Below, one piece after another: positions 10,435-17,372 of a DNA stretch of 64,000 bases. The position numbers and the translations under genes are program-made. The DNA is taken from positions 62,001 to 126,000 of the forward strand of contig JAPOYR010000004.1 in the NCBI GenBank assembly GCA_026706485.1, read 5' to 3'. Source of the stretch: Chloroflexota bacterium. Its GTDB lineage: Bacteria > Chloroflexota > UBA11872. The notes under the pieces were generated by a model. It saw only the letters and a program-made list of their open reading frames with translations, made no database searches and was not told the origin of the DNA. Position 1 is the first letter of the stretch, and the number at the start of each line of letters is the position of its first letter.

Positions 10435-10610
10435 CCTCTCCGTGCTGGAGTCCTGCTCCCTCCCCTTAACCGGAGACCCGAGCAATACCCGACCAAGCTT
10501 GACGATGACCGGGCGAACTTCATCCGCCCCGAGGTTCAATGAGGGGTGGATTCCCGCCTTCGCGGGAATGACGAAGGACTACGCAAAGGTCTCTTAACAG
10601 GGGGAGGGGG
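10435..10610. repeat. Composite repeat element (family B ends around a family A hairpin)
   Basis: The region starts with a CCCTCTCC-type stretch and ends with AACAGGGGGAGGGGG. At 10550-10569 it carries the perfect ATTCCCGC/GCGGGAAT hairpin. Flanking words (GACGATGA, TCCGCCCCG, GGGTGG before the hairpin, ACGCAAAG after it) are shared with the element at 17165-17372, so the two are copies of one non-coding element about 180-200 bases long. Confidence 0.65.
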
Positions 10611-13005: not shown

Positions 13006-13033
13006 TTGCGCCGAGCCCGATAGTTCGTATACG
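13006..13033 (+). promoter_or_regulatory. Candidate promoter of the structured RNA
   Basis: TTGCGC at 13006-13011 and TATACG at 13028-13033, with a 16-base spacer. An alternative -10, TACGAT, lies at 13030-13035. A transcript would begin near 13040, immediately before a series of hairpins that ends at a strong terminator. Confidence 0.4.
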
Positions 13034-13039
13034 ATGTAC

Positions 13040-13376
13040 ACGCAGCGTTAACAGCGCTGCTCGGGTCGTCCCTGGCCCGCGGATCAGCGGTTGATCGACG
13101 GGCCAGCACCGCCAAAGGTGGCGTGATGCGAAACATTCGCGTCGAGATGGGACGCTGGCAAATTGACAGGTTGCGCCCCGCGGCGTGACGGGCGAGTCGT
13201 CGCGGGGCAGCAGGTCACGCCGGACCCGGATGCCTGCTTCCGACACCTGAGATCCCGCACTCGCGAGTTCGCTCGCTTGGGACTCTAGTCCCCGGGTCCG
13301 CCAGACGACCGGGCGCGATCACGGACACGTATCGCGCTGTGGGCTCGCATCGAAGGATGCGAGCCCACGTCTTTTC
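13040..13376 (+). ncRNA. Candidate structured non-coding RNA, family unknown
   Basis: No credible reading frame lies here, but the strand is packed with perfect stems. They are GCAGCG/CGCTGC (13042-13060), CTGGCCCG/CGGGCCAG (13072-13106) enclosing GATCA/TGATC, GCGAA/TTCGC (13128-13140), GCCCCGCG/CGCGGGGC (13175-13208), an alternative GGCGTGAC/GTCACGCC (13182-13221), GCGAG-UUCG-CTCGC (13263-13276) and GGGAC/GTCCC (13279-13292). It ends in a 13-bp terminator hairpin. Length is about 335 nucleotides. I looked for RNase P, tmRNA, SRP, 6S, cobalamin and TPP signatures and found none that fit. Alternatively it is a long structured leader of the radical SAM gene, although the terminator argues for an independent transcript. 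Folding was done by eye. Confidence 0.5.
13339..13376 (+). terminator. Rho-independent terminator
   Basis: A perfect 13-bp stem GTGGGCTCGCATC / GATGCGAGCCCAC with a GAAG loop, followed by GTCTTTTC. It is the strongest intrinsic terminator seen in the window and ends the candidate RNA rather than any protein gene. Confidence 0.85.
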
Positions 13377-17164: not shown

Positions 17165-17372
17165 AGCGGGGTGGCCGGGGACTTCACCCTCACCCTCGTA
17201 TCGAGTACGGGGCAAGCTTTATCCCTCTCGCGTCAAGAGGCCCTTGCGAAACTCAGCCAAGCGCGACGATGATCCCGCGAATCCTCTCCGCCCCGGATGC
17301 ACTGAAGGGTGGATTCCCGCCTCCGCGGGAATGACGGTGGTTTACGCAAAGCGCTCATTGAGGGACAGGGGA
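17165..17372. repeat. Composite repeat element, second copy
   Basis: CACCCTCACCCTC at the left, a perfect ATTCCCGC/GCGGGAAT hairpin at 17313-17332 and a GGGACAGGGG end. It shares GACGATGA, TCCGCCCCG, GGGTGG and ACGCAAAG with 10435-10610. It fills the gap before the methyltransferase gene. Confidence 0.65.

Follow-up and report, generated by a model that had tools for sequence, protein, structure and literature searches.

A Chloroflexota-wide family of stand-alone structured RNAs with a short open reading frame and a candidate ribosome-arrest peptide

The DNA analyzed here is a stretch of 64,000 nucleotides from a Chloroflexota genome assembly (the window). Between folE, which encodes GTP cyclohydrolase I, and a radical-SAM gene, it carries a free-standing, strongly folded predicted transcription unit (positions 13042-13376) with its own promoter and terminator. 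The plus strand of positions 13040-13376 (337 nucleotides) has a predicted folding energy of -181.6 kcal/mol, compared to -148.9 +/- 4.8 kcal/mol for shuffled sequences (z = -6.8, 0 of 100 shuffles), and the stems noticed in an earlier sequence-only reading are therefore real beyond chance. Because the opposite strand also folds well (z = -5.5), the fold by itself leaves the strand undecided. We assigned the plus strand because the promoter, Shine-Dalgarno site, open reading frame (ORF), and terminator all point that way.

The predicted promoter (13006-13035, plus strand) consists of TTGCGC (-35), an 18-nucleotide spacer, and TACGAT (-10), and places the start of transcription at about 13042. 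It is kept throughout the genus, and the sister genus has the form TTGACG...TAGGAT. The promoter proposed earlier is thus plausible, though it scores under the threshold of a consensus scanner. A predicted 5' hairpin (GCAGCGTT-AAC-AGCGCTGC, 13042-13060) is invariant in sequence across the genus and hence offers no covariation evidence. A Shine-Dalgarno site, AAAGGTGG (13114-13121), is followed 4 nucleotides further on by the ATG of a conserved 20-codon ORF (13126-13188) with the translation MRNIRVEMGRWQIDRLRPAA and then a stop codon. The region had previously been described as lacking a gene, which is incorrect. The peptide core G-R-W-Q-I-D (13150-13167, with the Asp codon at 13165-13167) corresponds to the family consensus G-V-W-Q-V-D described below.

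A hairpin formed by GCCCCGCG...CGCGGGGC (13175-13208) begins 7 nucleotides past the Asp codon, and the stop codon of the ORF falls within it. Further downstream, the fold prediction pairs CGGACCCGG (13221-13229) with CCGGGTCCG (13292-13300) in a long helix that encloses the UUCG hairpin GCGAG-UUCG-CUCGC (13263-13276), and it places another hairpin, GCGCGATCACG...CGTATCGCGC, at 13313-13337. Within the genus, the long helix has two double-change and two broken cells, and the latter hairpin has two and three, respectively. The unit ends in an intrinsic terminator (13339-13376), which is composed of a 13-bp stem (13339-13368) followed by GTCTTTTC. The UUCG hairpin, the nested hairpin of at least 8 bp at 13175-13208, and the 13-bp terminator with its T-run all match their earlier description. 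Elsewhere in the window, two listed ORFs (10546-10590 and 17309-17350) share the translation MDSRLRGND.GLRK at their start and are probably copies of a dispersed intergenic repeat rather than genes. Similar repeats, GTCATTCC, flank the RNA in related genomes.

We found no match between the RNA locus in the window and Rfam at either gathering or relaxed thresholds (score above gathering or E < 0.1), and the lowest E-value in the window (0.15) lies outside the RNA. Likewise, none of 20 relatives matched Rfam. A highly diverged housekeeping RNA had been suggested as one identity for this element, and its size and single copy would fit 6S, SRP, RNase P, or transfer-messenger RNA (tmRNA). Furthermore, 6S RNA (RF00013) went undetected in the window's family (f1, including genome G000), yet is present in sister family f2. 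However, RNase P RNA, tmRNA, and SRP RNA were each detected elsewhere in the same genome and gave no match at the locus, and 6S RNA gave no signal at the locus or in any family f1 genome searched. Not even a weak Rfam signal was seen, and what is conserved is a coding sequence that appears to be translated (see below). We therefore regard this explanation as very improbable and already largely refuted. The peptide gave nothing significant against Pfam or NCBIfam, a literature search with its motif returned only chance, unrelated matches, and no relatives of the RNA family were found in virus contigs, plasmids, or phages.

Within the window's family, 18 of 19 genomes share the locus. Every one of the six genomes in the genus has it, with 89-96% identity between the window sequence and the remaining five. 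Of the 13 sister-genus genomes, 12 have it as well, the exception being an assembly that is 76% complete. The window genome holds a single copy. In the sister genus (L070), folE is still upstream, a GntR-type gene intervenes, and the next gene is convergent. The sister-genus ORF, M...NIRVLIGRWQVDRSRPAA, is 35-37 codons long and rich in Arg, and has the same end as the window-genus ORF. Both genera have their own Shine-Dalgarno site, stop codons of all three types (TGA, TAA, and TAG) occur, and changes in the ORF fall mostly at third codon positions. At one locus (L067, genome G004), the stop codon has changed from TGA to TCA, which makes the peptide 15 residues longer, and the core and hairpin base are unaltered.

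Relatives beyond this family were sought in 400 Chloroflexota genomes. A profile built solely from the window-family peptide gave weak matches that reached other families, and these were short ORFs ending in RVLxGVWQVDR, followed by a stop codon and a GCCC hairpin. An exact DNA pattern was found in 20 genomes versus 2 for the reversed pattern, and about 14 were judged real by context. Six of the matches (L132, L133, L135, L138, L139, and L140) were dropped after visual inspection, in which they were judged to be chance matches or ordinary coding DNA. A covariance model of the ORF end plus hairpin (R1) then yielded strong matches (E <= 1e-6) in about 52 of the 400 genomes and 23 families, counts that are approximate since members were accepted on context plus score. 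Weak R1 matches to the hairpin alone (e.g., 15 in G236) were treated as noise or repeats.

For an independent model (R2), we used 26 members, none of which came from the window's family. This model matches the window at 13138-13209 with 36.3 bits (E = 4.8e-9 in 214 kb) and also recovers every other window-family locus searched. In a genome-wide search with stricter filters, the window site has an E-value of 3e-4 with a shortened hairpin match. The same model gave zero matches among 396 Actinomycetota genomes, which doubles as a false-positive control; these and the Chloroflexota were the two phyla searched. Because automatic full-length alignment across families failed, the pieces on which both models rest were aligned manually; their hairpin loops were shortened to six bases. 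A scan of genome contigs for the long RPAA form of the pattern found only the window's family and four unrelated contigs. For three of the latter (L087, L091, and L095), R2 found nothing over noise in the corresponding genomes.

Copy number is mostly one per genome, and some relatives are single copies in incomplete metagenome-assembled genomes. Several genomes have two or three copies with differing peptide N-termini (L183/L184/L210 in G308, L186/L187 in G218, L146/L189 in G127, and L116/L137 in G052). Diverged forms at L207, L212, and L213 suggest that the RNA family extends beyond these counts. They include GMVYQIDR-stop, from an 11-Mb genome, and VLYCVWQVDR-stop, from family f4, which belongs to the same class.

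Members typically have a promoter, a Shine-Dalgarno start, an ORF of 13-37 codons that ends with G-V-W-Q-V-D-(x)-stop, a GCCC...GGGC hairpin, and a terminator, often with a second long helix before the terminator. Examples of the ORF are MTRIDFGVWQVDR and MNNRIRWGIWQVDR, in addition to that of the window. Sigma-70 promoters were found 87-165 nucleotides ahead of the Trp codon in 30 of 45 members versus 1.2% of background windows, and terminators 131-275 nucleotides past this codon in 35 of 45 versus 4.5%. A start preceded by a Shine-Dalgarno sequence occurs in the frame of the ORF in 47 of 50 members, compared to 2 and 1 in the other frames, and the third codon positions are the most variable (by entropy) within G-V-W-Q-V-D. 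By every sequence test, the ORF is translated. At locus L196 (G134), the motif is tandemly doubled in the ORF (GAWQVDQAFLGVWQVD-stop).

Only the last six to seven residues of the peptide are conserved. Among 45 representatives, the core residues are kept in nearly all cases (Gly in 44, Trp in 41, Gln in 44, Val or Ile in 44, and Asp in 43), and the preceding part ranges from about 6 to 25 residues and varies in sequence. Asp is followed most often by Arg or Lys (23 of 45), and S, W, C, F, G, V, T, M, or a stop codon also occur at this variable position. The stop codon also floats: it directly follows Asp in 6 of 45 members, lies one codon on in 33, and comes later in 6, including the window, whose stop is five codons later than in most relatives. 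An early stop is missing in about one in seven members. The gap between the Asp codon and the hairpin is 6-7 nucleotides in 38 of 45 members and 3-5 nucleotides in the other seven, for which the automatic measure counts extra pairs under the usual stem.

The hairpin after the core is paired in 100% of cells and has 15 double-change cells versus 3.9 in shuffled alignments (0 of 500). A second helix, CUCAGG-CUA-YRCCC with GGGYR-GAYGU-CCUGA, likewise covaries (12 double-change cells versus 3.8, 0 of 500) on the eight members where it was aligned. Judging from position, the window's 13221-13229/13292-13300 helix is its probable counterpart. Chance hairpins or a dispersed repeat might have been suspected, given that the intergenic DNA is GC-rich and REP-like repeats lie nearby. 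However, the covariation of both helices, the single copy in the window genome, the spread over 23 families, the folding z-score, and the blank result in Actinomycetota have already refuted this reading, to which we assign almost no probability.

By sequence criteria, these analyses show that the locus belongs to an unlisted, Chloroflexota-wide family of stand-alone RNAs with a short ORF. The window's membership follows from its R2 match together with its Shine-Dalgarno-led ORF, 7-nucleotide hairpin gap, promoter, and terminator. The sequence-only reading had raised the options of a new class and of a housekeeping RNA. Conservation, covariation, and the zero Rfam matches support the former and not the latter, whereas the best-conserved element, the short coding sequence, had been missed.

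The order of ORF, hairpin, and terminator is the one seen in leaders that respond to drugs or amino acids. This raises the question of whether the RNA is a cis transcription attenuator, in which a pause on the ORF would allow RNA polymerase to pass the terminator and transcribe the gene that follows. A same-strand gene does follow soon after the RNA at some loci: the radical-SAM gene in the window, a Sir2 gene in G320, and an NAD(P)-type oxidoreductase gene in G091/G075. A phosphoribosyltransferase-like gene (no Pfam match) also follows on the same strand at L134, L191, L192, L184, and L194, which represent three families (genomes G284, G296, G349, G308, and G355). However, there is no common downstream gene, and across the examined loci no regulated gene lies directly downstream as it does for arrest leaders. 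At many loci, those of the sister genus included, a convergent gene comes next. Moreover, if the 3' arm of the hairpin were freed, the downstream part of the RNA would offer it no pairing partner beyond chance expectation (1 of 45 members at p <= 0.05), and thus a simple switch through this arm is unsupported. Because downstream genes are unrelated or convergent, we consider cis attenuation improbable as a general explanation. A separate case is L206 (about 1340-1610, G320), a compact variant in which a short ORF (MRKLNIHLVFGVLQVDRPGSH), a hairpin, and a T-run terminator precede the Sir2 start codon by about 30 nucleotides. This arrangement resembles a cis attenuator built of these same components. 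The antibiotic-responsive attenuators of the vmlR type (PMC9226507) similarly have a short ORF, RNA structure, and a terminator in succession within a leader RNA. They are followed by one regulated gene, unlike the Chloroflexota RNAs.

Another reading is a dual-function small RNA or small-protein mRNA, in which the peptide or a base-pairing RNA does the work and the hairpin and terminator protect the 3' end. SgrS/SgrT is a dual-function small RNA with a short ORF, and like it the Chloroflexota unit appears to be a stand-alone RNA with a promoter, a terminator, and a short ORF preceded by a good Shine-Dalgarno site. The mostly single copy per genome, the unrelated neighbors, and the Arg-rich peptide of the sister genus also agree with such a role. 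Yet in the Chloroflexota family, in contrast to SgrS/SgrT, sequence conservation is highest in a motif at the C-terminus of the peptide, which is coupled to a hairpin. A mature peptide would not be expected to hold a near-constant distance to a downstream hairpin, or to vary so widely before its last residues. We therefore view this reading as possible but rather unlikely. A trans role for a leader-type ORF has a precedent in peTrpL, a leader peptide that derives from the trp attenuator and acts in trans, although no sequence relation to the Chloroflexota peptide was seen (PMC7298713).

The reading we favor, to which we give about an even chance, is a stand-alone RNA carrying a ribosome-arrest peptide, which would serve as a sensor acting in trans or through its own abundance. 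A variable N-terminus with a conserved C-terminus is the usual mark of arrest peptides. Conservation of the C-terminus alone, together with the near-fixed distance to the hairpin, fits an arrest in which Asp lies in the P site or close to it. We propose that the last residues arrest the ribosome from within the exit tunnel, with Asp in or adjoining the P site. Ribosomes cover about 15 nucleotides beyond the first P-site base, and given these dimensions the 5' arm of the hairpin would fall within the footprint of a ribosome halted at Asp. The structure, stability, or binding partners of the RNA would then depend on whether a ribosome occupies it, and the RNA could report the state of translation as set by a drug, a metabolite, or amino acid supply. 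Since a target gene is generally absent downstream, the output would be exerted in trans or through the abundance of the RNA itself. The unrelated or convergent downstream genes and the lack of a second partner for the hairpin arm lead us to prefer, with moderate confidence, a trans or ribosome-bound-RNA role.

Two known arrest peptides offer partial parallels. TnaC has a Trp 12 residues before its end and arrests at termination to control tnaAB in cis. It resembles the Chloroflexota peptides in its conserved Trp and Asp and in arrest, which for the Chloroflexota peptides is predicted, at or near the stop codon, and differs in its spacing, its cis regulation of tnaAB, and the lack of a hairpin at a fixed gap. 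ErmBL, the macrolide-dependent arrest leader peptide of Streptococcus ermB, stalls at V9-D10, when Asp10 occupies the P site and K11 the A site. Its arrest needs R7, V9, D10, and K11, and these critical residues lie at its C-terminal end (PMC4935803). The Chloroflexota peptides are likewise short, with V-D at positions -1/0, commonly a basic residue next, and their conserved residues at the C-terminus. However, ErmBL precedes ermB and controls it in cis, whereas no resistance gene follows the Chloroflexota RNA. Furthermore, position -3 is Arg in ErmBL and Trp in the Chloroflexota family, in which the presumed A-site residue varies. We interpret the ErmBL parallel as partial, and as a likeness rather than homology.

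Regulation in Chloroflexota is little known, and this work adds to the phylum an RNA and peptide family with no Rfam, Pfam, or NCBIfam match. To our knowledge, arrest peptides are known almost exclusively as leaders that control the next gene. More tentatively, and at somewhat less than even likelihood, these could be phylum-wide ribosome-sensing stand-alone RNAs in which a ribosome stalled against the hairpin forms a trans-acting switch or scaffold that needs no downstream gene. A widespread family whose free-standing, structured RNA encodes an arrest-like peptide would represent a new use of nascent-chain sensing.
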